Positions 1-5,730 of a stretch of 11,864 nt of DNA are shown here, piece by piece (the stretch's first letter is position 1; every line of letters starts with the position of its first letter). This DNA comes from Anaerolineae bacterium (GTDB taxonomy: Bacteria; Chloroflexota; Anaerolineae; 4572-78; J111). A program made the position numbers and the translations under genes. The stretch spans positions 1-11,864 of the forward strand of contig JAGRBY010000084.1 of assembly GCA_020433835.1 (NCBI GenBank). Reading direction: 5' to 3'. The notes below the pieces were generated by a model. That model did not search any database and had not been told where the DNA came from. It worked only from the letters and a program-made list of their open reading frames with translations.

Positions 1-690
1 CCTCGTTACGTGCAAGATAAAATCAGCAATTCGCTGGTCAACTACCAAGAAGATGGGTACATCAATCCCTTTATGGTCATGAACGAGCTGGAATCAGGCA
101 TGAAAAATCATCCTCTGATTACAGATGAAGATCAGCGCAAGAGTTATCGGGAACTGCTGGCTGTGGTTAAGAATGAGTATACTGAGATTGTGAAAAACGA
201 AGTTCAGCGGGCCATCAGCGCCGATGAAGAAGCCATCAAGCGCCTGTGTTCTAATTACATCGACAACGTGAAGGCTTATACCCAACGTGAAAAAGTAGTC
301 AACAAATTCACCGGTCAGGCCGAAGAACCCGATGAGCGATTGATGCGCAGTATCGAAAAGAAAATCGACATTCCCGAAAGCCGTAAAGATGATTTCCGGC
401 GCGAGATTATGAACTACATCGGTGCCCTGGCGATTGAAGGCAAAACCTTTGATTACAAAACAAACGCTCGTTTGCAAAAAGCACTTGAGTTGAAACTTTT
501 TGAAGATCAGAAGGATAGTATTAAACTTACCTCTCTGGTCAGCCAAGTTGTCGACCAGGCCACCCAGGAGAAAATTGACGTTGTTAAAGCCCGTTTGATC
601 AAAAACTTCGGTTATAACGAGCAAAGTGCGACAGACGTATTAAATTACGTAGCCAGCATCTTTGCCCGTGGTGATACAAACGGCGCATAA
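1..690 (+). CDS. prkA: PrkA family serine protein kinase, C-terminal part (5' truncated)
   Basis: The reading frame is open from the first base, giving about 229 residues that begin [13 protein letters not shown] and end at TAA 688-690. The GTG at position 10 is an internal valine codon, not a start. The sequence resembles the C-terminal domain of PrkA (YeaG in E. coli), an AAA+-like serine kinase or ATPase of roughly 630-645 residues that responds to starvation and stress. The N-terminal P-loop ATPase half therefore lies upstream of the window. The visible part is highly charged and mostly helical, with no membrane segment. The assignment is strongly supported by the next two genes, yhbH and spoVR, its usual operon partners. 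What is seen is the tail and the gene order; kinase activity is family knowledge and cannot be checked here because the catalytic part is missing. Confidence 0.93.
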
Positions 691-710
691 TCAGAATTAA
701 TAAGTCGAAA

Positions 711-776
711 ATTGCCGGAAGGTGCAGGGTGTTTTTTAGCGCCTTGCACCTCGACCAAAAGCAGTTACCCGGCAAT
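711..776 (+). repeat. Nested hairpin between prkA and yhbH
   Basis: Two inverted repeats are nested in the 111-bp gap. The outer arms are ATTGCCGG (711-718) and CCGGCAAT (769-776), a perfect 8-bp match. The inner arms are GGTGCAGGG (721-729) and CCTTGCACC (742-750), 9 bp with one G-U pair. The run TTTTTT lies in the inner loop, not after a stem, so this is not a canonical intrinsic terminator. It may be an mRNA processing or stability element that sets prkA levels relative to yhbH-spoVR; that role is inference. Confidence 0.5.
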
Positions 777-801
777 AATAGACGGATGAGCTACGGAATC
801 C

Positions 802-1905
802 ATGCAAAGAATTCAACAAGACTTAAACCGTTTTCGCCGTATTGTACGGGGACAGATCAAAAAGAACTTACGCAAGTATATGTCGCAAGGGGAAATGATT
901 GGCCGGCAGGGTAAGCGGGCCGTCAGCATCCCCCTTCCTCAAATTGACCTGCCTCGTTTTCGATACGGTCCTAAACAGTCAGGCGGCGTAGGTCAGGGAG
1001 AGGGTGAAGTTGGCGATGCGATTGGCAAAGGCGATCCGCAAGAAGGTTCGGGCGAAGCCGGCAAAGACCCTGGCCAGCACATTATCGAGGTCGACATCAC
1101 CCTGGAAGAGTTGGCCGAAATTTTAGGCGAAGAGCTTGAACTCCCCAACATCGAACCCAAAGGCCAGAAGAACATCGTTGCCGAAAAGGCGAAGTACAGC
1201 GGTATTCGGCGGGTTGGCCCTGACAGTTTACGCCATTTCAAACGTACATACAAAGAGGCTCTGCGCCGTCAGGTGTCCAGCGGCCTCTATGATTTTAAAA
1301 ACCCGGTCATCATTCCCATTCGCGATGATATTCGCTACCGCTCCTGGACTGAAACGCCACTACCCCAAAGTAATGCCATCATTATCTACATGATGGACGT
1401 TTCCGGTTCTATGGGCAACGAGCAAAAGGAGTTGGTTCGCCACACCGCGTTTTGGATTGAAACCTGGCTAAGAAGCCAGTACCAACAAATTGAAATCGTT
1501 TACATTGTGCACGATGCGGCAGCCAAAGAGGTTGACAAAGAAACGTTCTACCATCTTCGCGAAGGTGGCGGCACCCGCATTAGCAGTGCCTACAATTTAT
1601 GTAACAAAATTATCGACGAGCGCTATCCCCCAACAGAATGGAATATCTATCCTTTCCATTTTAGCGATGGTGACAACTGGGGCAATGGCGACACACAAAT
1701 TTGTACCAAACTGCTTGCGAATGAAATTATCCCTAAATCAAATCTATTTTGTTACGGACAAGTTCGCAGTTTGTATGGCTCAGGCAACTTCTTCCATGAC
1801 CTCAAAAATCATTTTGAAAAGGAAGACGGGCTGGCGATGTATGAGATCACCAAGCGCGATGAAATTCTCGATGCGATTAAAGAATTCTTGGGGAGGGGTC
1901 GGTAA
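802..1905 (+). CDS. yhbH: YhbH/YeaH family protein (DUF444), von Willebrand A-like domain
   Basis: A 367-residue protein of the YhbH/YeaH (DUF444) family. The N-terminal third is basic and helical, followed by a glycine/acid-rich, probably disordered stretch at residues 61-91. The C-terminal half is a von Willebrand factor A-like fold with a MIDAS-type metal site: DVSGSMG (D199, S201, S203), GGGTRISS with T258, and SDGDNW with D289. Length is in the usual range. The ATG at 802 has only a weak SD (ACGGA, 793-797), consistent with expression from an upstream transcript. The stop codon is directly followed by the spoVR ATG, so the two are probably translationally coupled. In E. coli and B. subtilis the gene sits with prkA and spoVR and is linked to stationary-phase, stress or sporulation responses; its biochemical role is not settled. 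Confidence 0.93.
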
Positions 1906-3402
1906 ATGAAACGTACGGATCTCTCGCCTGAATTGCAGGCTGCCTGGGATGAAATTGATGGTTATGCCAAGGGCTATGGCTTAGATTACTTTCCTATCAT
2001 TTACAAAGTTCTCGATTACAAAACTTTGTATGAGATTGCGGCTTTAGGCGGCTTTCCCATTCGCTATCCGCACTGGCGTTTTGGAATGGAGTACGACCAG
2101 CTATCCAAAGGGTACACCTACGGGTTAAGCGTTATTTATGAGATGGTCATCAACACCGATCCATCGTATGCCTATCTGCTGGAAGGCAATGAGATGGTTA
2201 CCCAAAAGATGGTGATGGCTCACGTAACGGCCCACGTCGATTTCTTCAAACACAATATGTGGTTCGCCTACACCAATCGAAAAATGCTTGATGAAATGGC
2301 GAACCACGCGACACGTATCCAACGGTTAATCAACCGCTATGGGTATGAGATGATTGAAGATTTTATTGACGTGTGTCTGTCGTTGGATAATTTAATTGAT
2401 TATCATGCTCCTTATATCAAACGTCCAGAGGCCAGAACCGAAATTCCTCTCTCCTCACCACTCGCTGAAGATAGGGCGATTGAAGGACTTAAGGTTGACC
2501 GAGATTACATGCGCCACTACATTAATCCACCTGAGTATCTGGCTCAGCAGCGACAAAAGCAGATTGAGGAAAAGCAGAAAGCCCGAAATTTCCCGGAAAA
2601 TCCTCAAAAAGATATTCTCTTGTTCCTCCTCAATTACGCCCCTCTCGAACCATGGCAACACACCATCTTGGAGATAATTCGAGATGAATCCTACTACTAT
2701 GCCCCTCAAGGCATGACGAAAATCATGAACGAAGGCTGGGCATCGTACTGGCACAGTAGAATTATGACCGAGAAGGCATTGACCGACTCGGAAGTCATTA
2801 GCTTTGCTGACCACCATGCCGGCGTAGTGGCGACCAGTCCGGGGCGGTTAAATCCCTACAAGTTAGGTTTGGAGTTACTACGCGATATCGAGGATCGCTG
2901 GAACAAAGGCAAATTTGGCAAAGAGTATGAAGAGTGTGAGGATATTCAGGCCAAACGTAATTGGAACAGAAATCTAGGTTTGGGCCAGGAAAAGCTTTTT
3001 GAAGTTCGCAAACTGTATAACGATGTCACCTTTATCGACGAATTCTTAACCCCGGAATTTGCCGCCGATCAAAAACTTTTCAGCTTTGATTACAATGACC
3101 GGAACGACCTTTATGAGATTGCCTCGCGCGAGTTCAAGATGATTAAGGAAAAACTTCTTTTCCAATTGACGAACTTTGGCCAACCCTACATTTGTATAGA
3201 AAATGGTAATTATGGTAATCGTGCGGAACTCTACTTAAAACATCGCTATGAAGGCGTTGATTTGAAATATGATTATGTAAGAGATACCATGCGGAACTTA
3301 CACACCATTTGGACTCGGCCTGTCCATCTGGAAACGGTTATTGATGACGCCCCTTATATTTTATCATATGACGGAAATGAATTAACGAAACAAAAACTGT
3401 AA
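1906..3402 (+). CDS. spoVR: SpoVR family protein
   Basis: A 498-residue protein of the SpoVR/YcgB family, close to full length (B. subtilis SpoVR is about 468 residues, E. coli YcgB about 510). Recognisable family segments include [20 protein letters not shown] (48-67), a histidine-rich stretch [16 protein letters not shown] (H106, H110, H116) and [13 protein letters not shown] (275-287), whose conserved histidines look like possible metal ligands. There is no signal peptide or membrane segment. The SD GGGAGG (1891-1896) lies inside the end of yhbH, 9 bases before the ATG. SpoVR affects spore cortex formation in Bacillus, but the family is widespread in non-sporulating bacteria as part of the prkA-yhbH-spoVR stress operon. 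No other sporulation gene is visible here, so a general stress role is more likely. No terminator is evident after the stop. Confidence 0.95.
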
Positions 3403-4128: not shown

Positions 4129-4362
4129 ATGCCCCTTTATGAGTACTACTGTCCTGATTGTCATACCAAATTTGATGCCTTGCGGCCAATGAGCAAAGCG
4201 GACGAAACGATTGCCTGTAAAAGTTGCGATAGCGAACGTCCAACCCGTACACTGTCTATGTTTGCAACCATAAGCAGCAATGCCGATTCGACAAATCGTC
4301 AACCGGTAGCCAGAAGTTTTGGTGGTGGATGTTGCGGCGGAGCCTGTGGTTGTGGCCATTAG
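4129..4362 (+). CDS. FmdB family zinc-ribbon protein
   Basis: A 77-residue protein of the FmdB family. The N terminus MPLYEYYCPDC is the family signature. C8/C11 and C30/C33 form two CxxC knuckles expected to bind one zinc ion. The rest is a low-complexity tail ending GGGCCGGACGCGH, which carries four further cysteines and a terminal histidine; Gly/Cys tails of this kind occur in the family. The founding member was proposed as a regulator of formamidase/amidase genes, but most members have no known function. The SD is GGAGAG (4117-4122), 6 bases before the ATG. The gene lies 32 bp behind the 189-aa gene and is followed by a strong terminator at 4434-4469. Confidence 0.9.
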   Translation: MPLYEYYCPDCHTKFDALRPMSKADETIACKSCDSERPTRTLSMFATISSNADSTNRQPVARSFGGGCCGGACGCGH

Positions 4363-4368
4363 ATGGCC

Positions 4369-4408
4369 AGTTGGTTGGTTGCTAGTTGGTCAATTTGTTA
4401 GTTAATTA
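4369..4408. repeat. Degenerate GTTGGT/GTTAGTT tandem tract
   Basis: Just after the fmdB-like stop, AGTTGGT-like units recur: AGTTGGT at 4369-4375, GGTTG directly after, AGTTGGT again at 4384-4390, then TTGTTAGTTAATT. This is low-complexity intergenic DNA with irregular spacing; no function is apparent. Confidence 0.4.
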
Positions 4409-4433
4409 ACCAGATCACCTCGTCATAGAAAAC

Positions 4434-4469
4434 AAAAAAGAGTCCGGGATATATTCCGGACTCTTTTTT
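4434..4469. terminator. Strong bidirectional intrinsic terminator
   Basis: The arms AAAAAAGAGTCCGG (4434-4447) and CCGGACTCTTTTTT (4456-4469) are a perfect 14-bp inverted repeat around an 8-nt loop. The A-tract and T-tract flank the stem symmetrically, so it can terminate in both directions: + strand transcripts from the 189-aa/fmdB-like unit, and any - strand read-through from the small unit at 4530-4741. Confidence 0.93.
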
Positions 4470-4530
4470 GCTTTAAAGAGATTTTTGTTTAGAACAATCA
4501 GATAAGTTTGGTTTATCGTGCTAAAAACGT

Positions 4531-4569
4531 TTAAACAAACAAGGGGCCACACTTGCGTGTGACCCCTTG
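4531..4569 (-). terminator. Intrinsic terminator of the small - strand unit
   Basis: On the - strand the stem CAAGGGG.CACAC / GTGTG.CCCCTTG (arms 4569-4557 and 4552-4540, one internal mismatch, 4-nt loop) is followed at once by TTTGTTTAAACG. The T-rich side lies only on the - strand; the + strand side continues with CCGCGCCG. The hairpin therefore fits a - strand transcript and ends the element that starts at the promoter near 4740. Confidence 0.75.
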
Positions 4570-4571
4570 CC

Positions 4572-4616
4572 GCGCCGTAGCACCTTATCTGTTAAACAGA
4601 GGTGATGCTACGGCGC
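4572..4616 (-). repeat. Long hairpin overlapping the end of the 17-codon ORF
   Basis: The arms GCGCCGTAGC (4616-4607 on the - strand) and GCTACGGCGC (4581-4572) pair perfectly over 10 bp. The stem continues after a 3-nt bulge with ACC/GGT (4603-4601 with 4584-4582) and TCTGT/ACAGA (4600-4596 with 4592-4588). The TAA stop of the small ORF lies in the distal part. The 5' arm also contains GCATCACCTC, which can pair with the SD of the same ORF, so this hairpin competes with SD sequestration. Confidence 0.75.
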
Positions 4617-4638
4617 TGCATAAATTACTGCTAGACAT
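4585..4638 (-). CDS. Putative 17-aa small protein or leader peptide
   Basis: The short ORF reads MSSSNLCSAVASPLFNR and ends at TAA 4587-4585. Support comes from its setting: an exceptionally good SD, AAGGAGGTGAT (4653-4643), lies 8 bases before the ATG; a near-consensus promoter lies upstream; and a terminator follows 15 bp after the stop. An in-frame ATG two codons earlier overlaps the SD and is less likely. The peptide is Ser-rich with one Cys, weakly hydrophobic in the middle and too short for a typical membrane helix. Its 3' half is constrained by the hairpin at 4572-4616, so conservation there could reflect RNA structure rather than protein. It could be a leader peptide, a small functional peptide or just the ribosome-loading part of a regulatory RNA. 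I know of no family match. Confidence 0.45.
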   Translation of the reverse strand: MSSSNLCSAVASPLFNR

Positions 4639-4640
4639 TC

Positions 4641-4653
4641 GCATCACCTCCTT
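4641..4653 (-). promoter_or_regulatory. Perfect extended Shine-Dalgarno site
   Basis: AAGGAGGTGAT (4653-4643 on the - strand) is complementary to the whole usual 16S rRNA 3' tail (ATCACCTCCTT), 11 of 11. The ordinary genes in this window have 4-8 matching bases. The site can pair either with TCACCTCCT upstream (4681-4673) or with GCATCACCTC downstream (4608-4599). Confidence 0.75.
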
Positions 4654-4681
4654 ATTTAGAGATAGCAATTTTAGGAGGTGA
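4644..4681 (-). promoter_or_regulatory. SD-sequestering leader hairpin
   Basis: In the predicted 5' leader, TCACCTCCT (4681-4673) pairs perfectly over 9 bp with AGGAGGTGA (4652-4644), the SD of the small ORF, around a 20-nt loop. A small hairpin GAGTTA/TAACTC (4699-4682) abuts it upstream. The arrangement is that of a translational control switch; the signal it would respond to is unknown. Confidence 0.6.
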
Positions 4682-4710
4682 GAGTTATTTAATTAACTCA
4701 TCACGCCGAT

Positions 4711-4739
4711 ATTATTGCATAAACCTGACGTGTTGTCAA
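4711..4739 (-). promoter_or_regulatory. Near-consensus sigma70-like promoter of the small unit
   Basis: On the - strand the -35 box is TTGACA (4739-4734), a perfect match. The -10 box is AATAAT (4716-4711), 5 of 6, with an exact 17-bp spacer. Transcription would start near 4703. The promoter lies 17 bp past the stop codon of the dehydratase gene on the same strand, so the small transcript can be made independently of that operon. It is the best-scoring promoter by eye in this window. Confidence 0.7.
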
Positions 4740-4755
4740 TTACCTATTTTAGTGA

Positions 4756-5730
4756 TTAGGTCAACTGACCAGGTTGATTATGCAAGATATCAGCTAACAG
4801 CGCGGTCTCGATATTCGCACCTGTCAGCACACAGACAACGATTTTACCCTGAAATGGATGCGACTCGGCCAGCAAGGGAGCCAAAGCAAGAGAACCCGAT
4901 GGCTCAACAACCAACTGTTCTTGTTCCACAAACGTAAAAACCGTTCGGCGCAGTTCAGTCTCGGAGAAAAGGAGAATATCATCGATAAGCGTTCGGGCAA
5001 TATAAAAAGGAATCGCCCCAAAACCACCGGCCAACCCATCCGCAATGGTTGGCTCATGATCGTAAGTTTCAAGCGGCAAATTTTGCGCAAAAGAAAGTTT
5101 CGCCGCCGGTGATGCTGTCGGCTGCACGCCGATAATTTGGCATCCGGGCGACATCCGCTTAACCGCCACACCAATACCAGCTACCAAACCGCCGCCGCCA
5201 ATAGGAACGATAATGACCTCCGCATCAGGTAGATCGCTGATAATTTCAAACCCACACGTGCCTGCTCCGGCAATGACAATGGGATCATCATACGCCGGAA
5301 TGTAGGTTGCTCCGGTTTCTTTAACAAACGCCTCGGCAGCGTGGTGCGCTTCATCGTACGTTTGGCCGGCCAACCGTAAGTTAATGGCAAATCGCTTTAA
5401 TTTGGCGATTTTAGGAGCAGGGGCGTTTTGGGGTACAAAGACCGTAACATTTGATATATTAAGCGCAGAAGCTGCGTACGCCAATCCAAGAGCGTGGTTT
5501 CCGGCACTGGCCGTGACCACACCACGTGCCAACTCGGCTGAATTCAAACTCATCAGCTTATTTAACGCTCCCCGAATTTTGAAACTACCGGTCGGCTGGC
5601 GACATTCAAGCTTAAGCCACACATGTGCACCGGTTAAAGCACTAAGTGCCTCGCTGTGAACTAAAGGAGCACGCCGAATGAACGGTTTTATCTGATGGTA
5701 AGCCTGCAAAATATTGTGAAGCTTGATCAT
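4756..5730 (-). CDS. PLP-dependent threonine/serine ammonia-lyase (threonine dehydratase), ACT-less form
   Basis: A 324-residue fold-type II PLP enzyme. QPTGSFKIRGA carries the Schiff-base lysine K51; TASAGNHALG (73-82) is the substrate-binding loop; PIGGGGL (177-182) is the phosphate-binding glycine loop; TIADGLAGG (228-236) and LTGAN (302-306) complete the signature. The last motif has Thr303 where many relatives have the Ser that contacts the PLP ring. There is no C-terminal ACT domain, so it resembles short catabolic enzymes (TdcB type) rather than isoleucine-feedback IlvA. The expected reaction is L-threonine to 2-oxobutanoate plus ammonia, or L-serine to pyruvate; serine racemase or hydroxyaspartate lyase are alternatives. 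The ATG has SD GGAGG (5742-5738), located in the end of the upstream phosphoesterase gene, whose stop is only 3 bp away, so translation is probably coupled. It is the last gene of its operon. Confidence 0.92.
   Translation of the reverse strand: MIKLHNILQAYHQIKPFIRRAPLVHSEALSALTGAHVWLKLECRQPTGSFKIRGALNKLMSLNSAELARGVVTASAGNHALGLAYAASALNISNVTVFVPQNAPAPKIAKLKRFAINLRLAGQTYDEAHHAAEAFVKETGATYIPAYDDPIVIAGAGTCGFEIISDLPDAEVIIVPIGGGGLVAGIGVAVKRMSPGCQIIGVQPTASPAAKLSFAQNLPLETYDHEPTIADGLAGGFGAIPFYIARTLIDDILLFSETELRRTVFTFVEQEQLVVEPSGSLALAPLLAESHPFQGKIVVCVLTGANIETALLADILHNQPGQLT

Follow-up and report, generated by a model that had tools for sequence, protein, structure and literature searches.

The space between a gene for a PALP (pyridoxal-phosphate-dependent, dehydratase-like) protein and a convergent gene for an fmdB-like zinc-ribbon protein carries what looks like a complete small transcription unit, on the minus strand at 4739-4533 of the window (the whole stretch of 11,864 nucleotides that was analysed). 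This raises the question as to whether the unit is a gene in its own right and, if so, what its RNA could be doing. The initial annotation had considered the ordered set of parts too complete to be expected by chance, and had read it as a stand-alone RNA, peptide-encoding or regulatory, of a kind it did not recognise. Comparison with related genomes makes it very probable that the unit is a genuine, free-standing gene, whose RNA of about 170 nt has a tiny ORF and alternative folds that can hide its Shine-Dalgarno sequence (SD).

Architecture of the unit in the window

As judged from sequence and fold, all the parts named in the initial annotation are present on the minus strand and in the order given there: promoter, leader hairpin, SD, 17-codon ORF, long hairpin, GC-rich hairpin and T-rich tract.

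4711..4739, minus strand: promoter, TTGACA (4739-4734), a 17-nt spacer and AATAAT (4716-4711), with 11/12 consensus letters
4682..4699, minus strand: 5' leader hairpin GAGUUA..UAACUC, from the MFE fold and not counted in relatives
4673..4681, minus strand: segment A, UCACCUCCU, the upstream anti-SD and partner of the SD in predicted full-length folds
4661..4666, minus strand: conserved box GCUAUC (GCYAUCCUAA among relatives), from alignments
4641..4653, minus strand: segment B, the extended SD AAGGAGGTGATGC (as RNA AAGGAGGUGAUGC), near-invariant columns in alignments A2 and A4
4585..4638, minus strand: 17-codon ORF MSSSNLCSAVASPLFNR plus stop, with the ATG at 4638 and the TAA ending at 4585; frame conserved in relatives
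4599..4610, minus strand: segment C, UAGCAUCACCUC, within the ORF and complementary to B and D, from duplex and column comparisons
4572..4616, minus strand: hairpin 1 (C:D), made of the 3' half of the ORF, the stop and the 3' arm D (4584-4572), from covariation
4533..4571, minus strand: intrinsic terminator, a GC-rich hairpin (4571-4538) followed by a T-rich tract, from covariation and MFE fold

A TG precedes the second promoter hexamer, and transcription is predicted to start at about 4704. The predicted 174-nt RNA folds at -79.1 kcal/mol vs. -42.4 kcal/mol (sd 4.1) for 200 shuffled sequences (z -8.9), none of which (0/200) folds as stably. Segment A, read by eye, is absent from some relatives. 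A scan of 2.5 kb gave four promoter-like sites vs. a shuffle mean of 3.5, and the terminator of the unit was missing from the output of a simple scanner over 2.5 kb; simple promoter and terminator scanners are therefore insufficient alone to establish the unit, and conservation is the decisive evidence. Between the unit and the fmdB-like gene there is a near-perfect inverted repeat (4429-4474) with A and T runs at its flanks. This repeat is probably a bidirectional terminator serving the convergent gene, lying outside the conserved unit.

Distribution among Chloroflexota

One contig scan supplied 80 loci, and a blastn search with the 212-nt unit in nine of their genomes gave matches at E <= 1.5e-5 in four; 12 genomes from the family of G002 yielded six further homologues, ten in total. 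These ten and the window were aligned with MAFFT (alignment A2, 11 sequences) to build model R1, which gave a strong match in 17/25 genomes from the order and a weak match in one, and matched 240/396 genomes of the class Anaerolineae once each (the ten training genomes counted). Model R2, built from the 76 sequences of alignment A4, matched 246/396 genomes of this class, again once each, and left 150/396 without a match; the 246 include 75 training genomes, and 171 of the 321 remaining genomes are matched. At E <= 1e-4, R2 also matched 106/400 genomes drawn from the phylum and, at E <= 0.01, 30/41 genomes from the class of a Roseiflexus MAG. Model R3 was built from 20 more loci, 19 of them in genomes searched from the Roseiflexus MAG's class, and there matched 109/120 genomes (90/101 apart from the 19 training genomes), with a single match in 106 of the 109; over the class of a SAR202 MAG the count was 4/100. 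Eight candidates were scored per genome in the R1 and R2 class searches and in the R2 phylum search. In a sample of ten Chloroflexota genomes, three had matches at E <= 1.2e-5, one at 0.0016 and two at 0.06-0.09, and four had none. The Roseiflexus genome itself (G398) had no match, nor was there a real one in G001, the Anaerolineae MAG whose dehydratase-like protein is nearest to that of the window (91% identity) and whose contig stops at the dehydratase gene. Unmatched genomes may be without the gene, may be incomplete, or may have been missed through strict filters.

Control searches bear on how far weaker scores can be trusted. No match was found in 10 non-Chloroflexota genomes, and R3 matched 1/100 Actinomycetota genomes (L280, E 8.4e-4; the one exact string sought in it was absent). 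R2 matched 1/101 Bacillota genomes at E 2.3e-6 (L287); this locus has an SD and a hairpin, B:C pairing is absent by eye, and we took it as a chance match rather than a family member. R2 scores near 1e-6 are thus no proof alone, so that some weaker matches may be chance, possibly among those of the 400-genome phylum search and the 41-genome Roseiflexus-class search. Judging from the matches as a whole, versions of the unit occur in two large Chloroflexota classes, usually one per genome. The covariance-type search that had been set beforehand for homologous structure in relatives returned hundreds of genomes, a breadth of distribution absent from the initial annotation, as were the alternative pairing of SD, ORF and 3' segment and the selection on the ORF.

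Two sets of loci were used for the comparisons below. The first set is A4, 76 sequences including the window, all in the class of G002; its 75 relatives were hand-picked from the matches, mostly high-scoring or on longer contigs, in genomes all within the 396, after 11 weak opposite-strand matches (E 0.002-0.009) had been excluded. The second set comprises 40 loci (L236-L275) chosen from the 41-genome and 400-genome searches; the class of G398 (Roseiflexus) supplied 24 of them, the class of G399 (SAR202) 4 and the class of G002 6 more divergent members, and 6 belong to unstated classes. L271, with no start under the rule used, and L259, with too little sequence before the SD, reduce the second-set counts to 39 for ensemble folds and ORF calls and to 38 for B:C duplex tests.

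The view that the RNA is of an unrecognised kind is borne out by Rfam 15 at gathering score, which gave no family match in the window and none at the element in 28 relatives (14 per set); within those 28 loci only tRNAs, an rRNA and a T-box were matched, all away from the element. A permissive scan of 4360-4800 returned 24 matches, every one below gathering score, the best being BjrC68 (E 0.00027, on the terminator hairpin) and rli40 (E 0.00057, on the plus strand), and we rejected assignment to a known RNA family on these negative and sub-threshold results. Among the titles and abstract beginnings listed by searches of the open-access literature, none describes such an RNA in Chloroflexota. 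Two families mentioned in the passages searched of one paper (PMC2864571), Chloroflexi-1 (RF01698) and pan (RF01749), gave no match in this analysis. A mobile repeat or phage-borne element was likewise rejected: each matching Anaerolineae-class genome has one match at the thresholds used, with 8 candidates scored each, the plasmid search did not find the unit, phage matches were 31-38 nt long and all outside it, and no viral contig contained the one exact pattern of the unit that was sought. Two second-set loci have RNA genes nearby: in L242 the unit and a T-box leader (RF00230, 139-381) are about 1.9 kb apart, and in L238 (2383-2521 and 2827-5001) some 300 nt separate the unit from a large-subunit rRNA gene, the 3' end of which is convergent with it.

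Covariation, coding and alternative pairing of the SD

Compensatory changes, which the initial annotation had looked to relatives for, are abundant. In A4 (76 distinct sequences) 96.3% of cells are paired and 26/35 pairs change on both sides, counts that lean towards the modelled structure because A4 was fitted to a model carrying it; the covariation score is 0.551 vs. 0.203 in shuffled and at most 0.145 in slid alignments. All 14 modelled pairs of the terminator and 9/11 pairs of the main helix of hairpin 1 change on both sides among the 76 sequences, and the independent 11-sequence MAFFT alignment has double changes at 10/35 predicted pairs. A chance assembly of parts is ruled out by this covariation and by conservation, and the claim that the ordered set is not accidental holds, with homologues in hundreds of genomes.

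An ORF of 15-20 codons is in frame with a conserved core in 75/76 sequences, the exception being L149; the distance from start to core is 27, 30, 33 or 36 nt in those 75 and 29 nt in L149. Within the main helix of hairpin 1, the four pairs at third codon positions (columns 62, 65, 68 and 71) hold 2 + 18 + 27 + 14 = 61 double changes, and the other seven pairs hold 29 together. In this alignment, such a bias to third positions is the pattern of a coding sequence doubling as a stem. Comparison across relatives establishes that the family exists, usually in a single copy, and that its ORF of about 15-20 codons stays in frame. The first set is typified by the peptides MDSSIKPSAVASLLK and MSDFSSMQSAVASPPVLG and the second by MSSKRMGVTAGEAR and MSNKRKGITVEVVR; the GRAVY means of the two sets are -0.13 and -0.37, and the longest hydrophobic run is 5. 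Serine codons at positions 2-6 of first-set ORFs are AGY in 120/132 cases, a preference that could be due to an RNA constraint or to tRNA sensing. The GCYAUCCUAA box ahead of the SD (A4 columns 1-10) hardly varies within the first set, and many second-set loci have GCCGUUCAGGC or a similar sequence in its place. The GCYAUCC part of the box pairs with the SD in nearly all sequences, yet with zero double changes, so that the box may bind something.

Another set of pairings links segments B, C and D. B is complementary to C over about 11-14 nt, and C has a second partner in D, the segment that follows the stop. For the first set the mean energy of cognate B:C duplexes is -23.3 vs. -21.4 when permuted (sd 0.21; 2000 permutations, best -22.2), and for the second set -21.8 vs. 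-18.5 (sd 0.42), although the sequences are related, so that the permutation numbers are not probabilities. The cognate duplex is better than its own non-cognate mean in 59/76 first-set sequences, and B:C beats 95% of ORF letter shuffles in 75/76 first-set and 36/38 second-set sequences. The null of synonymous recoding leaves C:D unfixed, and C:D may supply part of the B:C signal seen with it: 69/75 first-set and 27/38 second-set duplexes are more stable than 95% of recodings, and for the window alone 75/2000 recodings pair as well. By column, 88.9% of B:C cells are paired (86.6 in shuffles, at most 62.5 when slid), and 32 cells show double changes vs. 14.7 in shuffles; pair 30:68 is U-A in 31 sequences, C-G in 24 and unpaired in 18, and pair 26:72 is A-U in 62 and G-C in 8. 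Only 2/13 B:C pairs change on both sides, a number reached by 433/500 shuffles, because the SD side hardly varies; the number of pair types is reached by 439/500 shuffles, and the other three column measures exceed all 500. RNAalifold, given the second-set alignment A5, picked B:C unprompted. Taken across relatives, these comparisons establish that the SD, or its partner within the ORF, takes part in pairings that exclude one another.

Folding of successive transcript lengths suggests an order for these pairings, the folds being equilibrium predictions on truncated sequences with assumed starts rather than kinetics. When first-set transcripts are cut off at the stop, the predicted ensembles have B paired with the ORF in 72/76; at full length the partner of B is the leader in 61/76 and the ORF in one. 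For the second set, B:C is dominant in 36/39 prefixes, and the full-length picture is mixed (leader dominant in 16/39, ORF in 5/39), with a less clear handover. The mean unpaired fraction of the SD is 0.11, 0.08 and 0.12 for leader-only, prefix and full-length RNA in the first set, and 0.31, 0.23 and 0.26 in the second, where it is less covered. We had considered that D frees the SD outright; this was rejected, since the SD is predicted to be mostly paired in all three states, and our reading moved to a change from a tight lock to a looser one.

B has 10-12 contiguous letters that match the complement of the 16S 3' tail (taken from general knowledge) in 56/76 and 34/39 sequences, and C resembles the tail itself. 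Together with a promoter and terminator that look strong, this fits a mainly non-coding, trans-acting sRNA, in which the anti-SD-like C, or the SD-like B and D, would pair with mRNAs or 16S rRNA and the ORF would be secondary. We regard this as rather doubtful, as the conserved frame and third-position bias show selection on codons, and C is predicted to lie within a strong stem at full length.

Independence, known systems and a proposed mode of action

In 64/75 first-set and 28/40 second-set loci, the 120 nt upstream contain a sigma-70-type promoter with at least 10/12 consensus letters, vs. 1.4% and 0.4% of upstream sequences after letter shuffling. Of the 75 first-set loci with a downstream ORF, the first such ORF has the same orientation as the unit in 41 and the opposite one in 34; for the second set the corresponding counts are 20 and 19 (by a crude ORF caller). 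Given the conserved promoter, the mixed downstream strands and the lack of a dominant neighbour, the unit looks independent, in agreement with the stand-alone status proposed in the initial annotation; with neighbours that are not conserved, it is no leader tied to any single gene. The largest downstream cluster, an AIR-synthase-like gene (PF00586 and PF02769 in three members scanned), is the first ORF in 14/76 loci (including L091, 7002-8018), and on this count we rejected the unit as the leader of that gene. Two members of the cluster score nearest to HypE, SelD and ThiL models, under their cut-offs.

Amino-acid attenuators combine a leader peptide, mutually exclusive segments (1:2, 2:3, 3:4) and a terminator, and the A/B/C/D pairing logic of the unit and its short ORF ahead of a terminator recall this design. 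The unit could accordingly be a regulated 5' region whose ORF is a leader peptide and whose downstream gene has been lost in the window, and the AIR-synthase-like gene does follow in 14 loci. Prediction and comparison do give a short ORF with mutually exclusive pairings; but there is no consistent co-directional gene downstream in either set, no downstream cluster exceeds 14/76, and the terminator is a separate hairpin outside the alternative pairing, which makes a leader or attenuator improbable. Sinorhizobium meliloti rnTrpL/peTrpL, in the accessible part of its description (PMC7298713), is a released leader that acts in trans. As far as these sources go, the Chloroflexota unit shares with attenuators and rnTrpL a short ORF, mutually exclusive segments, a terminator and a small RNA, and differs from them in having no conserved downstream gene, a terminator outside the switching segments and its own promoter kept amid changing neighbours.

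The closest parallel in the handling of the SD is aapA3 of Helicobacter pylori, a type I toxin mRNA (Masachis et al. 2019, PMC6733600), for which the accessible text describes anti-SDs in the 5' UTR and the ORF that act in turn, covariation supporting successive SD-sequestering hairpins, and a third anti-SD that traps the full-length RNA by a 5'-3' interaction until 3' trimming activates it. Going by that text, both are small mRNAs with successive, mutually exclusive SD-sequestering pairings (predicted in our case); the final segment D of the Chloroflexota unit, in contrast, captures the ORF anti-SD and not the SD, and the unit has neither an antisense promoter above chance nor a hydrophobic peptide. 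A type I toxin-like small mRNA, with its SD hidden throughout transcription because the peptide is harmful, would fit an SD predicted to be mostly paired in the leader-only, prefix and full-length states (more weakly in the second set) and the two anti-SDs of the window, one upstream and one within the ORF, an arrangement shared with the aapA3 model. We nevertheless think it unlikely. Antisense promoters are at chance level (1/76 at 10/12 or more consensus letters vs. 1.0% of shuffles) and the peptides are not hydrophobic, so membership of the toxins is not supported; type I toxin systems are usually patchy in distribution, whereas 109/120 genomes of one class have the unit, nearly always once.

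Small RNAs with short ORFs offer two further comparisons. SgrS/SgrT, SR1/SR1P and RNAIII are stand-alone dual-function small RNAs with a short ORF; the Chloroflexota unit is likewise stand-alone with a short ORF, for which sequence comparison indicates codon-level selection, and unlike them it uses the interior of that ORF as the partner of its own SD. The Downstream-peptide motif/yfr6, according to the accessible part of its description (PMC2864571), has a short conserved ORF recognised by indels in threes. On that account it resembles the present unit as a small RNA with a short conserved ORF whose length changes in multiples of three; its conserved structure is the 5' UTR, whereas here structure runs through the ORF and past the stop, and the Chloroflexota unit matches no Rfam family.

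On balance, we lean towards a free-standing small mRNA that represents a new Chloroflexota RNA family, with an SD that is handed between exclusive partners during transcription. Its gene and architecture are well supported, and we infer the switching in vivo, the signal and the product. The predicted promoter would start, and the predicted terminator end, an RNA of about 170 nt. The leader would cover the SD (B) first in the early transcript, and C, once made inside the ORF, would lock it tightly; when D, past the stop, is made, it would take C, and the SD would revert to pairing with the leader. This order of handover would hold back translation until the transcript is complete. Ribosomes would then start from the leader-paired SD, aided by the near-complete match of this SD to the complement of the 16S tail, and their passage along the ORF would reset the fold. 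The near-full tail complementarity, the unit's own promoter and its usually single copy across two classes lead us to suggest that it may report or respond to translation capacity, via the peptide or the RNA fold. More tentatively, it might be a widespread, previously undescribed housekeeping RNA of Chloroflexota that acts as a self-contained sensor of translation: the SD, the micro-ORF interior and the post-stop segment would form a three-way switch, each translating ribosome would reset it, and the output would be the peptide or an exposed segment.

To our knowledge, the RNA biology of Chloroflexota has been little studied, and a usually single-copy, conserved RNA gene in at least two large classes has here no match in Rfam 15. 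If real, it would have one stretch of codons constrained by a peptide, by the 3'-side hairpin and by antisense pairing with the ribosome-binding site of the same RNA, and the models and alignments from this analysis make the gene directly testable in cultured Chloroflexota. Elsewhere in the window, at 10-3402, genes for the C-terminal part of PrkA, for DUF444 and for SpoVR lie consecutively, a grouping known from other bacteria.
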